From contig JAFVEY010000063.1 of assembly GCA_017475765.1 (NCBI GenBank), positions 1 to 46,315 on the forward strand: 46,315 bases of DNA, given 5' to 3'. Below are positions 23,583-28,685 of this stretch, one piece after another. Position numbers and translations under genes: made by a program. Numbering within the stretch: the first letter of the stretch is position 1; each line of letters begins with the position of its first letter. The DNA is from Clostridia bacterium (GTDB lineage: Bacteria > Bacillota > Clostridia > Oscillospirales > Acutalibacteraceae). The notes under the pieces are model-generated. The model worked only from the letters and a program-made list of their open reading frames with translations. It made no database searches and was not told the origin of the DNA.

Positions 23583-24686
23583 TCAATCCAAAAAATCTCT
23601 CAGCTTTTTGCTTCTGCTGGGATGACGCAGTTTGCGGAGAGCTTTGGCCTCTATCTGCCTGATTCTCTCTCTTGTGACATTGAATTCCTCTCCCACCTCT
23701 TCCAGCGTTCTTGATCTGCCGTCATCAAGTCCGAAACGAAGGCGCAGAACCTTTGCCTCTCTCGGTGTAAGCGTTGACAGAACAGCCGAAAGCTGCTCTT
23801 TCAGAAGTGTATTGGAGGCAGCTTCCTGTGGCGCCGGTGCATCATCATCAGGAATAAAATCTCCGAGATGACTGTCTTCCTCCTCGCCTATCGGCGTTTC
23901 AAGAGAAACAGGCTCCTGTGAAAGTCTTGTAATTTCCTTGACCTTATCGACAGGCATATCCAGAAGATCGGCTATTTCCTCAGCAGAAGGCTCATGTCCG
24001 GTTATATGGAGAAGCTGGCTTGAAGCCTTTTTGACCTTATTGATCGTTTCTACCATATGGACGGGAATTCTGATTGTTCTTGCCTGATCTGCGATCGCTC
24101 TTGTGATTGCCTGCCGGATCCACCATGTCGCATAGGTAGAAAATTTGAAGCCCTTTGTGTGGTCAAATTTTTCGACAGCCTTGATCAATCCGAGATTACC
24201 CTCCTGAATCAGATCCAAAAACTGCATCCCTCTTCCGAGATAGCGCTTTGCAATACTTACCACCAGCCGGAGATTAGCTTCCGACAGTCTTTGTTTTGCT
24301 TCCTTATCGCCATTGGATATCCTGATGGCAATGTCCGTTTCCTCCTCAGATGTCAAAAGCGGCACCTTGCCTATATCCTTAAGATAGATCTTGACAGGAT
24401 CGTCTATTGCAACGCTGTCCGAATAATCCTGCAAATCATCAGTATTATCCTCTAATCCTATCGTGGTAAGCTCATCGTCATCCAGCATGATATCGTCAAG
24501 CGTTTCAACAATCTCGATACCGTTGGTTTCAAGAGAATCATAAAACCTTTCCATCTGCTCGGCATCAATATCCATCTCTCCGATAGCATCCAGTATCTCC
24601 TTATTGCTGAGCTGCCCCTTTGATTTTCCAAGCTCGGTAAGCTCCTTGAGAACCGATTTTTTTTCAGGCTGAGCATTATTAGCCAT
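23583..24686 (-). CDS. rpoD: Housekeeping sigma factor RpoD, second copy
   Basis: 367 residues. A short region 1.1 ([40 protein letters not shown]) is followed by regions 1.2 to 4. All core features are intact: [20 protein letters not shown] (2.2), [17 protein letters not shown] (2.3-2.4), [10 protein letters not shown] (3.0) and [18 protein letters not shown] (4.2). It should recognise ordinary TTGACA/TATAAT promoters. The start at 24686 follows GGAGG. It is the last of three consecutive sigma-70 genes after dnaG and ends [11 protein letters not shown]. Which copy is the main housekeeping factor cannot be told; the other full copy directly follows dnaG as in most clostridia. Confidence 0.93.
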
Positions 24687-24727
24687 ATTACTTTCCTCCA
24701 TTCCCTTATTTCCTTATACCGGAAGAT

Positions 24728-25795
24728 TTATCTTCCCAGCCGCTTCATTGCTTCAAGTTCAGCATTTTCGACCTCTTCGATACTGATGTCAAGCGCTGCT
24801 GCAATCTCTTCAGCTGTCATTTCCTTCTTTCCGCCCAGACCATAGCGCAATGATATTACTTTTGCTTCCAATTCCGGAAGAGCGGCAAGCATATCGGCAA
24901 CCTGTCTTGAAAGCTGTTCCTCTGCTTTATCCTGCTCTGTTTTTGCATCTTCTCCGGGTGCTGTCTTTGATATGTCTGTATCCGACTTCACAGCAGCTGT
25001 ATTTTCCCTGCCCTTTGATGCTGCAATGATTTTTTCCACTCTTTCGGCAGATATATTCAGCTTCTCTGCAAGCTCCTTAATATTTGGCTCTCTGCCCTCA
25101 TCCGATCTGATACTGTCATAATATTTTTTCAGCTTTGCCATATCCTCGGCAAGTTCCTGCGGAACATTTACTGTATCATTTTCACTTTGCGTGAGTTCTC
25201 TCATCAGACTGTCAATCCGGTATGCCGCCATAGCCGTAAAGCTGATATTATCAAAATAATCAAATTCTCCGGCAAGCTCCATCACAGCGATGTTTCCCTC
25301 CTGAACAAGATCGAGATATAAAACGCCCTTTCCTGTATAATCCGATGCTATCACCGCCGAAAGATACAGACTTCCTTCGATCAGCTCCGATATTGCTTCA
25401 TCCGCTCCCTGACTCTTTCCGCAGGTCTGAAGCTGCTCGACAGCATAGATCAGTTCTCTGTCCTCTCCGGCATTTAACGGACGCATGGCGCTCAGCTCTG
25501 TCAGATAAAGCGCTATTGCATCCTCTGAGCCTGTCTGCGCTGCCTTTTCCTCCTCGCTGGAGTTTCTTATCCGCTTTGCCGCCTTTTTGGCGCTGTCCGG
25601 ATCGGCGATTTCCCACTGCGGAGGAATCACCTCTATATTCAGGCTCCAGAGCTGTCTGAGAAAACTTTTAAAGGTTTCTTCATCCATATCGCTGAAAGAA
25701 CCGAGTCGGAGTATTTCTCTGACAGCCAAATTTCCTTTGGTCATGCCCAATGTGATAAGCTCATCAGCCATATTTTCATACGAATCGTTCATCAT
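24728..25795 (-). CDS. Degenerate sigma-70-family protein
   Basis: About 355 residues, collinear with the flanking RpoD proteins. It has a region 1.1-like N-terminus (ADELITLGMTKGNLAVREILRLGSFSDMDEETF), a region 1.2 start (IALYLTELSAMRPLN), and a preserved core-binding motif LYLDLVQEGNIAVMELAGEFD. Region 2.3-2.4, [14 protein letters not shown] in RpoD, reads FTAMAAYRIDSLMR, losing the WW pair and the -10 contacts. Region 4.2 keeps LEAKVISLRYGLGG but its recognition helix is SIEEVENAELEAMKRL, losing the arginines that contact -35. It may bind core RNAP without normal promoter recognition. The start is uncertain: GGAGG lies 14 bases before the ATG at 25795, and an in-frame GTG at 25810 overlaps it. 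Not a simple pseudogene: the frame is open throughout. Confidence 0.8.
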   Translation of the reverse strand: MMNDSYENMADELITLGMTKGNLAVREILRLGSFSDMDEETFKSFLRQLWSLNIEVIPPQWEIADPDSAKKAAKRIRNSSEEEKAAQTGSEDAIALYLTELSAMRPLNAGEDRELIYAVEQLQTCGKSQGADEAISELIEGSLYLSAVIASDYTGKGVLYLDLVQEGNIAVMELAGEFDYFDNISFTAMAAYRIDSLMRELTQSENDTVNVPQELAEDMAKLKKYYDSIRSDEGREPNIKELAEKLNISAERVEKIIAASKGRENTAAVKSDTDISKTAPGEDAKTEQDKAEEQLSRQVADMLAALPELEAKVISLRYGLGGKKEMTAEEIAAALDISIEEVENAELEAMKRLGR

Positions 25796-25817
25796 ACCGT
25801 TTATATGCACCTCCGTA

Positions 25818-26900
25818 TTATTTCAGCTTCTTGCTTCTGCTTGGATGGCGGAGCTTTCTGAGTGCCTTTGCTTCAATCTGTCTGATTCTTTCACGAGTTA
25901 CATCAAATTCCTCGCCAACTTCTTCCAATGTTCTCGGTCTGCCGTCGTCCAATCCGAAACGCAGACGGATCACCTTTTCTTCTCTGGGTGTGAGGGTAGA
26001 CAGTACAGCCGCAAGCTGTTCCTTAAGCATTGACTGAGAAGCCGCATCCTGCGGTGTCAGAGCGCTGTCATCGGGAATAAAATCACCCAGATGGCTGTCC
26101 TCCTCCTCACCTATCGGCGTTTCAAGAGAAACAGGCTCTTGGGCAGCACGTATTGCTTCTCTGATCTTATCAACGGAGGTACCGAGAAATTCGGCAATTT
26201 CCTCTATGGTGGGCTCATGTCCGTTTTCGTGCAGAAGCTGACTGGAAGCTTTTTTTATTTTATTGATGGTTTCGCCCATGTGAACGGGGATTCTTATCGT
26301 CCTTGCCTGATCGGCAATCGCTCTTGTGATAGCCTGTCTGATCCACCACGTCGCATAAGTAGAAAATTTGAAGCCTTTGGTGTGGTCAAATTTCTCAACG
26401 GCTTTCATCAGTCCGAGATTACCCTCCTGTATAAGATCGAGGAACTGCATTCCCCTGCCGAGATAACGCTTGGCAATGCTTACAACAAGTCTGAGGTTCG
26501 CCTCGACAAGTCTTTGTGCTGCATCGTCATCGCCCTCCAGTATTTTTTGGGCAAGCTCTGTTTCCTCACTCGACGACAAAAGCGGAACTCTTCCGATCTC
26601 CTTAAGATAAATCCTTACAGGATCATCGGTGGAAACAACTCCATCAGAAATAACAGATTCCTTTTCTCCGTCCTCAGAAATAGATGTCAGCTCATCATCA
26701 TCCAGCATAATATCTTCCATCGTTTCAACAATTTCGATACCGCTTGATTCCAAAGCGTCATAAAATTTTTCCATCTGTTCGGGTTCAATATCACTTTCAC
26801 CCGTTGCGTCAAAGATTTCCTTATTGGTAAGCTGTCCCTTTGATTTTCCCAGTTCAATAAGGTCTGTCAATATTTTCTTTTCAGGCTGCTGTCCGCTCAT
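25818..26900 (-). CDS. rpoD: Housekeeping sigma factor RpoD, dnaG-linked copy
   Basis: 360 residues with complete regions 1.1-like ([40 protein letters not shown]), 1.2, 2, 3 and 4; [34 protein letters not shown] and [18 protein letters not shown] are identical or nearly so to the second copy. The C-terminus stops at SRSKKLK, four residues shorter than that copy. AGGAGGAG precedes the ATG. It starts 18 bases after the dnaG stop, the classic dnaG-rpoD arrangement of the macromolecular-synthesis operon, so this is the best candidate for the primary sigma-A. Confidence 0.95.
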
Positions 26901-26918: not shown

Positions 26919-28685
26919 TTATTGCTTCTTTTCCTTCATTTTCCTGAGCTGCTCCATAATAGTATCATTATCTGCCGCTGCTATCTGTTCGGGGGTGAGC
27001 TTCTCGCTCTCCTCTTCCAGAACACGGATATATTCATCTGCCGAACCCAAAGGGTCGTTTTCCTTCGGGCGTGCTGCCAGCATTCTTGCAATTCTGCTCA
27101 TTTCGTCAACGGAAAAATCTCCCGATATATCAGACATTGATATTTCTTGACCGTTTTCCGTCCGGGTGTGTAAGATCTCATATATTCTTCTGTTAAAGGC
27201 TGTTACAAAAACTTTCGGGTCAACTTCTTTACATATTTTTTCCGCTGCATCGGGATTCAGAATCATAATGGCAATCAATGCCTCTTCTGCATTTGCGGCA
27301 CGAAGATTATAAGATTTGTCTGTATTCATCCTGTCATTTCTGCCGCTGAGCTCCTTGATGACATCTCTCTGCATCGTTTTCATCTGCTGTGCGGCAGCCT
27401 TGCGGGCATTTTTCCTGACAAGTCGGTCAAAAGCGCTTTTTTCAACCTCAAGCTCCTTTGCCAGCCTTGTGATATACACATCCTGCTCCACCGGATTTTC
27501 GATTGTGGCAACCAGCTCTGCCGCACGGGTCAGAAATTCCACTCTCTGCTCTGTGATATCCGTGTTAAAGCCTGTTCTGAGCTTATCGAGACGATATTCT
27601 ATATCATTTCCCGATTTTTCAAGAAGCATACGGAATCTTGCGCTTCCCTGATCTCCGTAGGATTTGATAAATTCATCGGGATCCTTTCCGTTAGGAACTG
27701 TCAGAACCTTCACTTTCAGACCTGTCGGGCGCAGTATATTGATTGCTCTCTGTGTTGCCTTTTGTCCTGCTTCATCCGCATCGTAACATATCACAACCTC
27801 ATCGCAGTACCGCTTTATGATTAGTGCCTGCTCCTGCGTCAGCGCTGTTCCCAGCGTTGCGATCGCATTTTCAAAGCCTGCCTGATGAAGAGCAATAACA
27901 TCCATATAGCCCTCTACCAGTATCAGCTGTCCTTCTGCCTTATTTTTGGCAAACTGCAGGGCAAAAAGATTCCTGCTTTTATTGAATACCGGGGTTTCAG
28001 CCGTATTCAGATATTTGGGCTTTATATCCGACATGATTCTTCCGCCGAATGCAATGACATTACCTCGAAGATCAATGATTGGAAACATTACTCTGTCCGA
28101 AAATCTGTCAAACGGATAACCTTTTTTTGACTGATTGGCAAGATTCGCCTGAATCATCTCGGCAGCAGTAAAGCCCTTTGATTTAAGGTGATTGACAAGT
28201 TCATATCTTGACGGAGGCGAATATCCCAGTCCGAAATGGATGATGGTCTTTTCGGAAAGCCGTCTTTTTCTCAGATATTCCAGAGCCTGTTTTCCCTGGG
28301 GAGTGTATAGCTGTTTATGATAAAATCTTGCTGCTTCCCTATTTGCTTCATATATTCTTGTTTTCAGCTGTCCTGTTCCGTCATCTTTTCCTTGTTCGGG
28401 AACAGTCATTCCCGCACGCTGGGCAAGAAACTTTATCGCCTCGACATAATCCAGATTTTCCATTCGGCGGATGAATGTTATCACATCTCCGCCGACTCCG
28501 CAGCCAAAGCAATGAAAATATCCGTTTTCTCTTGAAACGCTGAATGACGCTGATTTTTCATTATGAAACGGACAAAGTCCCATAAGGCTTCTTCCTGATT
28601 TTTTTAATGGTACATATCCTGAAATAATATCGGCGATATCCGTTCTTGCCTTCAATTCCTGTATAAATTCGTCCGGTATCGGCAA
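26919..28685 (-). CDS. dnaG: DNA primase
   Basis: 588 residues. DnaG makes RNA primers for replication. The CHC2 zinc finger is C38-P-F-H41 and C59/C62 (HCFGC); the TOPRIM catalytic core has LILVEGYMDVIALHQAG and CYDADEAG; the C-terminal DnaB-binding region is the least conserved part. The start codon is TTG at 28685, preceded by GGGAGG at eight bases; no ATG lies close enough to keep the N-terminal PDEFIQELKARTDI block. It lies between dgt and rpoD on the same strand. Confidence 0.96.
   Translation of the reverse strand: MPIPDEFIQELKARTDIADIISGYVPLKKSGRSLMGLCPFHNEKSASFSVSRENGYFHCFGCGVGGDVITFIRRMENLDYVEAIKFLAQRAGMTVPEQGKDDGTGQLKTRIYEANREAARFYHKQLYTPQGKQALEYLRKRRLSEKTIIHFGLGYSPPSRYELVNHLKSKGFTAAEMIQANLANQSKKGYPFDRFSDRVMFPIIDLRGNVIAFGGRIMSDIKPKYLNTAETPVFNKSRNLFALQFAKNKAEGQLILVEGYMDVIALHQAGFENAIATLGTALTQEQALIIKRYCDEVVICYDADEAGQKATQRAINILRPTGLKVKVLTVPNGKDPDEFIKSYGDQGSARFRMLLEKSGNDIEYRLDKLRTGFNTDITEQRVEFLTRAAELVATIENPVEQDVYITRLAKELEVEKSAFDRLVRKNARKAAAQQMKTMQRDVIKELSGRNDRMNTDKSYNLRAANAEEALIAIMILNPDAAEKICKEVDPKVFVTAFNRRIYEILHTRTENGQEISMSDISGDFSVDEMSRIARMLAARPKENDPLGSADEYIRVLEEESEKLTPEQIAAADNDTIMEQLRKMKEKKQ

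Follow-up and report, generated by a model that had tools for sequence, protein, structure and literature searches.

Between two intact rpoD genes, the window (the whole stretch of DNA analysed, 46,315 nucleotides) carries a gene for a sigma-70 paralogue, here called SigX, and the strong statements that can be made about it are that it keeps the residues contacting the β′ coiled-coil of core RNA polymerase and that its conservation profile is the reverse of that of a normal sigma factor. SigX is probably a polymerase-binding regulator and not a dead gene. With its core-contact residues and usually region 4.1 retained, it would bind the core without reading promoters and compete with the two RpoDs, a reading to which we give a probability of about one half.

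Gene layout of the rpoD locus

The genes dgt, dnaG, RpoD_B, SigX and RpoD_A follow one another in that order on the minus strand, all in the same direction and separated by short gaps, and SigX, RpoD_B and RpoD_A are probably co-transcribed on one mRNA:

24728..25795, minus strand: SigX, putatively DNA-blind sigma-70 paralogue (355 codons, 355 aa)
25810..25814, minus strand: candidate ribosome-binding site GGAGG, lying 14 nt upstream of the ATG at 25795
23583..24701, minus strand: RpoD_A, intact primary sigma, downstream neighbour of SigX
25818..26900, minus strand: RpoD_B, intact second primary sigma, upstream neighbour of SigX
26919..28685, minus strand: dnaG, upstream of RpoD_B in the same direction

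The SigX frame is open from 24728 to 25810 on the minus strand; a GTG opens the frame at 25810, and the likely start is the ATG at 25795, for which the 14 nt spacing from GGAGG is somewhat long. The sequence-only reading of this DNA had described an open frame flanked by two intact rpoD copies and collinear with RpoD from region 1.1 to region 4.2, and this description is confirmed: RpoD_B and RpoD_A are both complete (RpoD_B is without the final residues present in RpoD_A), and SigX matches the SigA of solved holoenzymes over nearly the whole length (phmmer E 6e-31). The strings that it quoted, LYLDLVQEGN, MAAYRIDSLMR and SIEEVENAELEAM, are all found in SigX. The copy in the window also has, as aligned, an eight-residue insert (EQLQTCGK, 25415-25438) between regions 1.2 and 2.1, which is absent from the other 24 SigX and falls at the site of the non-conserved region of other primary sigmas.

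Orthologues and distribution

A search of 61 genomes of the genus with the SigX of the window alone (cut-off 1e-40) matched 17; sixteen of the matches, with the window's own among them, were SigX and the other was RpoD_B itself. A profile of these 16 orthologues was then run on 64 genus genomes and the loci were read, which gave RpoD_B in 28 genomes, a single RpoD in 32 (one of them a partial gene) and no match at all in four, all of them incomplete. As the sequence-only reading had proposed should be looked for, orthologues do occur at the same dnaG-rpoD locus: of the 28 genomes carrying RpoD_B, 25 have SigX next to an RpoD, full length in 20, cut by the contig end in G039 and without region 4 in four (G001, G021, G024 and G043). 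For G014 and G037 the assembly places one of the two RpoDs on a separate contig. Profile search and reading of the loci did not find SigX in G030 and G047, and in G033 an RpoD_A-derived copy stands in its place; SigX is therefore dispensable. Identity of the orthologues to the copy in the window is no higher than 27-40%. Strict cut-offs turned up no SigX beyond the genus: two of 398 genomes of the family matched at E 1e-72, both of the genus itself, and of 394 of the order only SigX's own genome did at E 1e-76, though these cut-offs would miss the most divergent SigX, such as that of G012 (1e-57 in the profile search).

Family membership and predicted fold

By fold and descent SigX belongs to the sigma-70 family, while by the reading features tested it would not count as a sigma factor. 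It is 27-31% identical to its two RpoD neighbours, which are about 77% identical to each other. On the NCBIfam RpoD equivalog (cut-off 572 bits) it scores 121.5, against 581.4 for RpoD_A and 555.2 for RpoD_B, and by this score it is not a group 1 primary sigma; among the models listed, it lies at least 247 bits under the cut-off of each RpoD-named model. In Pfam, Sigma70 r3 and r4 are above their cut-offs in the SigX of the window and r2 is just under (21.3 against 24), r2 being matched by 22 of the 25 orthologues (E 0.001); at the same threshold the window's SigX matches sigma-70 families only and shows no receiver domain. The AlphaFold2 model is sigma-like and confident (mean pLDDT 89.8, pTM 0.63), with predicted disorder at residues 265-285, in the linker that takes the place of region 3.2. 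Its modelled sigma2 domain superposes on solved sigma2 (7xya, 7pp4) at 2.8-2.9 Å over 117-118 residues; only this domain overlays well, the whole-chain superposition being poor (rmsd near 21 Å) because the domains differ in placement. The structure search adds little to what is gained from sequence.

Selection on SigX

SigX evolves fast but is clearly under purifying selection. Of the 300 possible pairs among the 25 SigX, all were aligned for comparison, and scoring was confined to the 12 that share at least 55% identity; ω was 0.113-0.306 in the ten with computable dS, values that are approximate because dS exceeds 1 in several pairs, and the two pairs with saturated dS (ω 0.000) are left out of the ranges quoted. 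The dN/dS check put forward with the sequence-only reading, under which a ratio near one would have told against function, thus returned ratios far below one. In the same pairs ω for RpoD_A and RpoD_B was 0.020-0.058, and the dN of SigX was 3.5 to 15 times the dN of RpoD (median 5.4, 22 comparisons). The clade of shortened SigX is constrained as well, with ω of 0.11-0.23 in four of its six pairs and saturation in the other two. Regional values were pooled over six of the 12 pairs, chosen to be non-overlapping, for which SigX overall gave a dN of 0.213 and an ω of 0.200; dN was lowest in regions 2.1-2.2 (0.116, ω 0.109) and highest in the linker (0.436), and in these close pairs the reading regions were no freer to change (dN 0.221 and ω 0.130 in 2.3-2.4, dN 0.185 in 4.2).

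Core-contact residues

Residue numbers are those of E. coli (RpoD_A number plus 240). In PMC8321222, D403, Q406, E407 and N409 are β′ coiled-coil contacts, and Q437 and T440 are also named; the roles given for other residues are general background. The regions concerned in SigX are:

25262..25336, minus strand: region 2.2 (GKGVLYLDLVQEGN...), β′ coiled-coil contact helix, best conserved region of SigX
24815..24913, minus strand: region 4.1, facing the β flap, relatively well conserved in those SigX that have region 4

The first three of these contacts are kept in all 25 SigX (D403, Q406 and E407, 25/25 each) and N409 in 21/25. The four average a retention of 0.96, compared with 0.34 over the 160 RpoD-invariant sites, and in 20,000 random draws from those sites so high a value had P 0.0001. 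Judged from its sequence, SigX has the β′ coiled-coil contact set of a sigma that binds core polymerase. Neither E407 nor N409 occurs in any of 47 SigG-like and SigF-like proteins; SigX therefore keeps an RpoD-type contact, and since these alternative sigmas bind core without the two residues, neither is essential to binding as such. Region 2.1 of SigX is without conserved basic residues that may be of further help to core binding, and K418 is replaced by E in 17/25. The selective keeping of the core-binding half that the sequence-only reading had proposed is thus supported by the contact residues, and one clade has gone as far as dropping region 4.

Promoter-reading residues and conservation profile

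Three stretches of SigX correspond to the elements with which a sigma factor melts and reads promoter DNA or to the sigma finger:

25166..25243, minus strand: region 2.3-2.4 (melting, -10 reading), reading residues and net basic charge lost
24746..24784, minus strand: region 4.2 reading helix SIEEVENAELEAM, acidic and without its basic reading residues
24914..25012, minus strand: linker replacing region 3.2 (sigma finger), finger sequence lost

Profiles were built from 84 RpoD, 22 SigG-like, 25 SigF-like and 25 SigX rows (20 SigX rows for the 4.2 reading helix), the SigG-like and SigF-like controls being the orthologues found in the same 25 genomes (58-78% identical to the window's own copy for SigF-like, 74-88% for SigG-like). 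The middle gene of G033 and the G037_B sequence were left out of the alignments used for conservation, charge, residue counts and the draw test. In region 2.4 pairwise identity is 99% for RpoD, 80% for SigG-like, 85% for SigF-like and 24% for SigX (25 rows), with net charges of +3.0, +2.0, +2.0 and -0.9; in the 4.2 reading helix it is 99%, 89%, 84% and 38% (20 rows), with net charges of +2.0, +1.0, +2.9 and -2.5. Among the SigX regions measured, conservation is highest in 2.2 (61%) and 4.1 (52%). The per-region check suggested with the sequence-only reading therefore yields a profile opposite to that of the ordinary alternative sigmas of the same genomes, and the conserved basic reading elements of 2.4 and 4.2 that mark a functional sigma-70 factor are missing from SigX.

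Retention at RpoD-invariant columns runs from 52% in region 2.2, 46% in 1.2, 43% in 4.1 and 40% in 2.1, through 32% in 3.0-3.1, 29% in 2.3, 27% in 4.2 and 25% in 1.1, to 13% in both 2.4 and the finger. The region 3.2 finger motif, a feature of functional sigma-70 factors, was not seen in any of the 25 aligned SigX. Group 3 and 4 sigmas also differ in this finger. On the -10 side Q437, W434 and R436 are each kept in 0/25 SigX and T440 in 3/25, while R441, kept in 46/47 of the SigG-like and SigF-like proteins, is kept in 0/25 and is E in 15. In region 4.2 R584 is kept in 0/20, R586 in 1/20, R588 in 3/20 and Q589 in 1/20, and the C-terminal basic tail is absent. To say that region 2.3 has no aromatics left was too strong: W434 is indeed lost throughout and the window's own copy has M at Y430, but F427 is kept in 25/25 and an aromatic stands at Y430 in 23/25 and at W433 in 21/25 (Y in the window's copy). 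Other DNA-facing features also persist, namely E458 in 21/25, R451 as K or R in 19/25 and E585 in 15/20, and a basic residue (R or K) is found at W434 in 23/25 and at Q437 in 20/25. In the draw test the -10 set had a retention of 0.20 (P 0.09) and the -35 set likewise 0.20 (P 0.19); the DNA-reading sets are thus lost beyond the average of RpoD-invariant sites, though not significantly so.

Alternative readings and proposed mechanism

Two conventional readings of SigX are disfavoured by these results. An ordinary alternative sigma whose promoter code lies far from that of RpoD would accord with the presence of all sigma domains and the sigma fold, with the absence of W434 and Q437 from the SigG-like and SigF-like proteins too, and with the E458, the aromatics and the basic residues at W434 and Q437 that persist; however, the SigX orthologues have few reading residues in common (24% in 2.4, 38% in the reading helix), whereas the SigG-like and SigF-like proteins (80-85% and 84-89%) show a single invariant residue at most of the reading positions and retain R441, and a neutral to acidic charge, a lost finger and four species without region 4 make such a sigma improbable. 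Slow decay of a redundant rpoD copy, to which the fast divergence, the absence from G030 and G047, the shortening in four species with a profile match continuing past the stop codon in G043, and the young RpoD_A-derived copy with ω 0.48 in the SigX slot of G033 all lend something, is in our estimate very improbable. Long open frames stand in 25/25 orthologues (that of G039 cut by the contig end), ω is 0.11-0.31 where computable, the shortened clade included, the core-contact residues stay although roughly two in three cells at RpoD-invariant sites have changed, and folding is predicted both for the SigX of the window and for one shortened orthologue.

Many unrelated anti-sigmas act on sigma factors, and region 4 is a usual target of those of phages. 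SigX could be imagined as a decoy that sequesters some anti-sigma, or a phage protein, directed against RpoD; PhyR of the Alphaproteobacteria, a sigma mimic with a receiver domain, does this for the anti-sigma NepR (PMC4598750, where some anti-sigmas are also said to bind region 2.2). The likeness is that of a sigma-derived protein which, for SigX presumably, no longer acts as a sigma, and fast evolution fits an arms race beside the rpoD genes; yet a decoy has no need of the β′ coiled-coil contacts, one SigX clade has dropped region 4, and SigX has no receiver domain and keeps its core-contact residues, unlike PhyR, which leaves a decoy role quite unlikely. The β′ clamp helices bind elongation factors too, so a clamp-binding factor acting after initiation may be entertained together with a split or assisted sigma subunit resembling RsoA, and we consider this pair of possibilities unlikely while taking it seriously. 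In B. subtilis, according to PMC10028694, RsoA supplies sigma2 and needs SigO to supply sigma4; the shortened SigX are sigma2-sigma3-like and resemble RsoA, a sigma2-like polypeptide, in not being whole sigmas, but most SigX bring their own region 4, and both flanking RpoDs appear to be complete sigmas that have no need of a partner.

The reading that we prefer remains a competitor for core polymerase, and from the features above we infer how it might have arisen, bound core, become unable to read DNA, competed and served the cell. Tandem multiplication of rpoD behind dnaG would have taken place in the ancestor from which one sub-clade of the genus descends, and a third copy would have been remade into a protein that kept the sigma2 residues meeting the β′ coiled-coil and, in most cases, the region 4.1 face towards the β flap, but lost the promoter-reading and melting residues and the sigma finger. 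Made from an mRNA common to RpoD_B and RpoD_A, SigX would fill the sigma-binding site on core RNA polymerase without starting transcription, remove core from the sigma-A cycle, and by competing with the two RpoDs tune the amount of core usable by both. The sigma-like competitor or regulator of the sequence-only reading thus stands in respect of core-contact keeping and constraint, and its role is one that the sequence suggests. SigX may, tentatively, be the first of a class of free-standing 'blank' sigma subunit, an rpoD duplicate that would be co-expressed with rpoD and selected to sit on the β′ coiled-coil without reading DNA. If so, it would determine how much core is open to sigma-A, or else work on the polymerase after initiation, and region 4 would be turning optional as the lineage evolves, the protein working with or without the flap contact.

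SigX resembles RpoD/SigA in its collinearity (1.1 to 4.2), its place behind dnaG, its sigma2 fold and its RpoD-type β′ contacts, and differs in having lost the 3.2 finger, the residues with which 2.4 and 4.2 read promoters, and a number of basic residues in 2.1-2.4. The model for MzaA, the sigma-70-like protein of the MZA anti-phage system, gives a weak match (58.8 bits) via the shared sigma fold; RpoD_A matches it far better (251 bits), and no MZA system is implied. Among the matches listed from open-licence literature there was no promoter-blind RpoD paralogue and no duplicated rpoD in this group. A promoter-blind, core-binding sigma paralogue would control the supply of polymerase in a new manner and offer a natural case in which core binding is separated from DNA reading. 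With 25 orthologues, full length or shortened, beside RpoDs, with relatives without SigX and with the fresh rpoD re-duplicate of G033, the idea is directly testable, and the single-RpoD sister species serve as controls.

Descent and variants of the locus

In the RpoD tree, from which the partial gene of G042 and a 45% RpoD-like protein of G006 were left out, the 31 single-RpoD proteins separate from the remainder (96/92), as does the RpoD_B group (100/100). The SigX tree, compared by eye, largely mirrors the RpoD_B groups, and inheritance therefore looks vertical, with the gene as old as the two-RpoD state. The 14 diagnostic columns favour neither RpoD_A nor RpoD_B as the source, being near even (56 RpoD_A-like and 60 RpoD_B-like of 319 SigX cells). 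A mobile origin was considered and rejected: protein matches in plasmids (250 records) and phages (44 records) are all below 60% identity, at 23-30% in the 12 rows listed from each, and a scan of viral contigs gave 33 loci at 22-31%. A scan of named genomes gave three loci at 22-25%.

The four SigX that have lost region 4 group in a single clade (100/97), beside the SigX of G038, which still has it. In these species 53-135 nt remain before the RpoD_A frame, too short for region 4, and sigma2 is well predicted in the one that was modelled. Two of them (L061:5192-6115 and L063:5198-6112) share a C-terminal tail, SV(G/D)DI(S/G)SLME, replacing region 4, which is possibly a new short motif. At the unbroken locus of G015 (L105:1505-3630) RpoD_B and SigX remain and are followed by a frame that by eye is acetate-kinase-like; RpoD_A was found neither there nor elsewhere in this genome, which is 76% complete, and if the gene is really missing, the role of primary sigma must fall to RpoD_B. 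In G039, the closest relative of G015, no RpoD_A was found and the contig ends inside SigX. The young copy of G033 (L057:1328-2314) is 63% identical to the RpoD_A of the window, has deletions in the linker and finger and gives dS 0.32 and ω 0.48 against its own RpoD_A; the RpoD_B beside it has an in-frame TAG, and the copy looks like a second start on the path of SigX, or decay.

Tandem multiplication of rpoD recurs in the family, and among the copies read a putatively promoter-blind one was seen in the genus of the window only. In a survey of 150 family genomes at least 90% complete, at a loose cut-off, nine genomes besides that of the window had more than one match, and the seven of these that were read (G091 and G153 were left out) hold 16 RpoD-like copies, which adjoin one another in six of the genomes and form a row of three in two. 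Like the rpoD genes of the window, these stand in two or three adjacent copies behind dnaG; unlike SigX, all 16 keep the reading motifs WW(I/V)RQ(A/S)(I/V)(T/S)R and TRER(I/V)RQI, including the three adjacent full RpoDs in each of two genomes of another genus of the family (L199:3094-6490 and L200:2834-6253). Two further sigma-like genes were noted in the genus of the window. The single-RpoD genome G063 has, between dnaG and rpoD, a 94-residue frame (L093:3479-3760; 40.8 bits to RpoD_B) with a stretch resembling sigma region 4, and the RpoD-like protein of G006 (L103:1869-2954), 45% identical to RpoD_B, is encoded on another contig.
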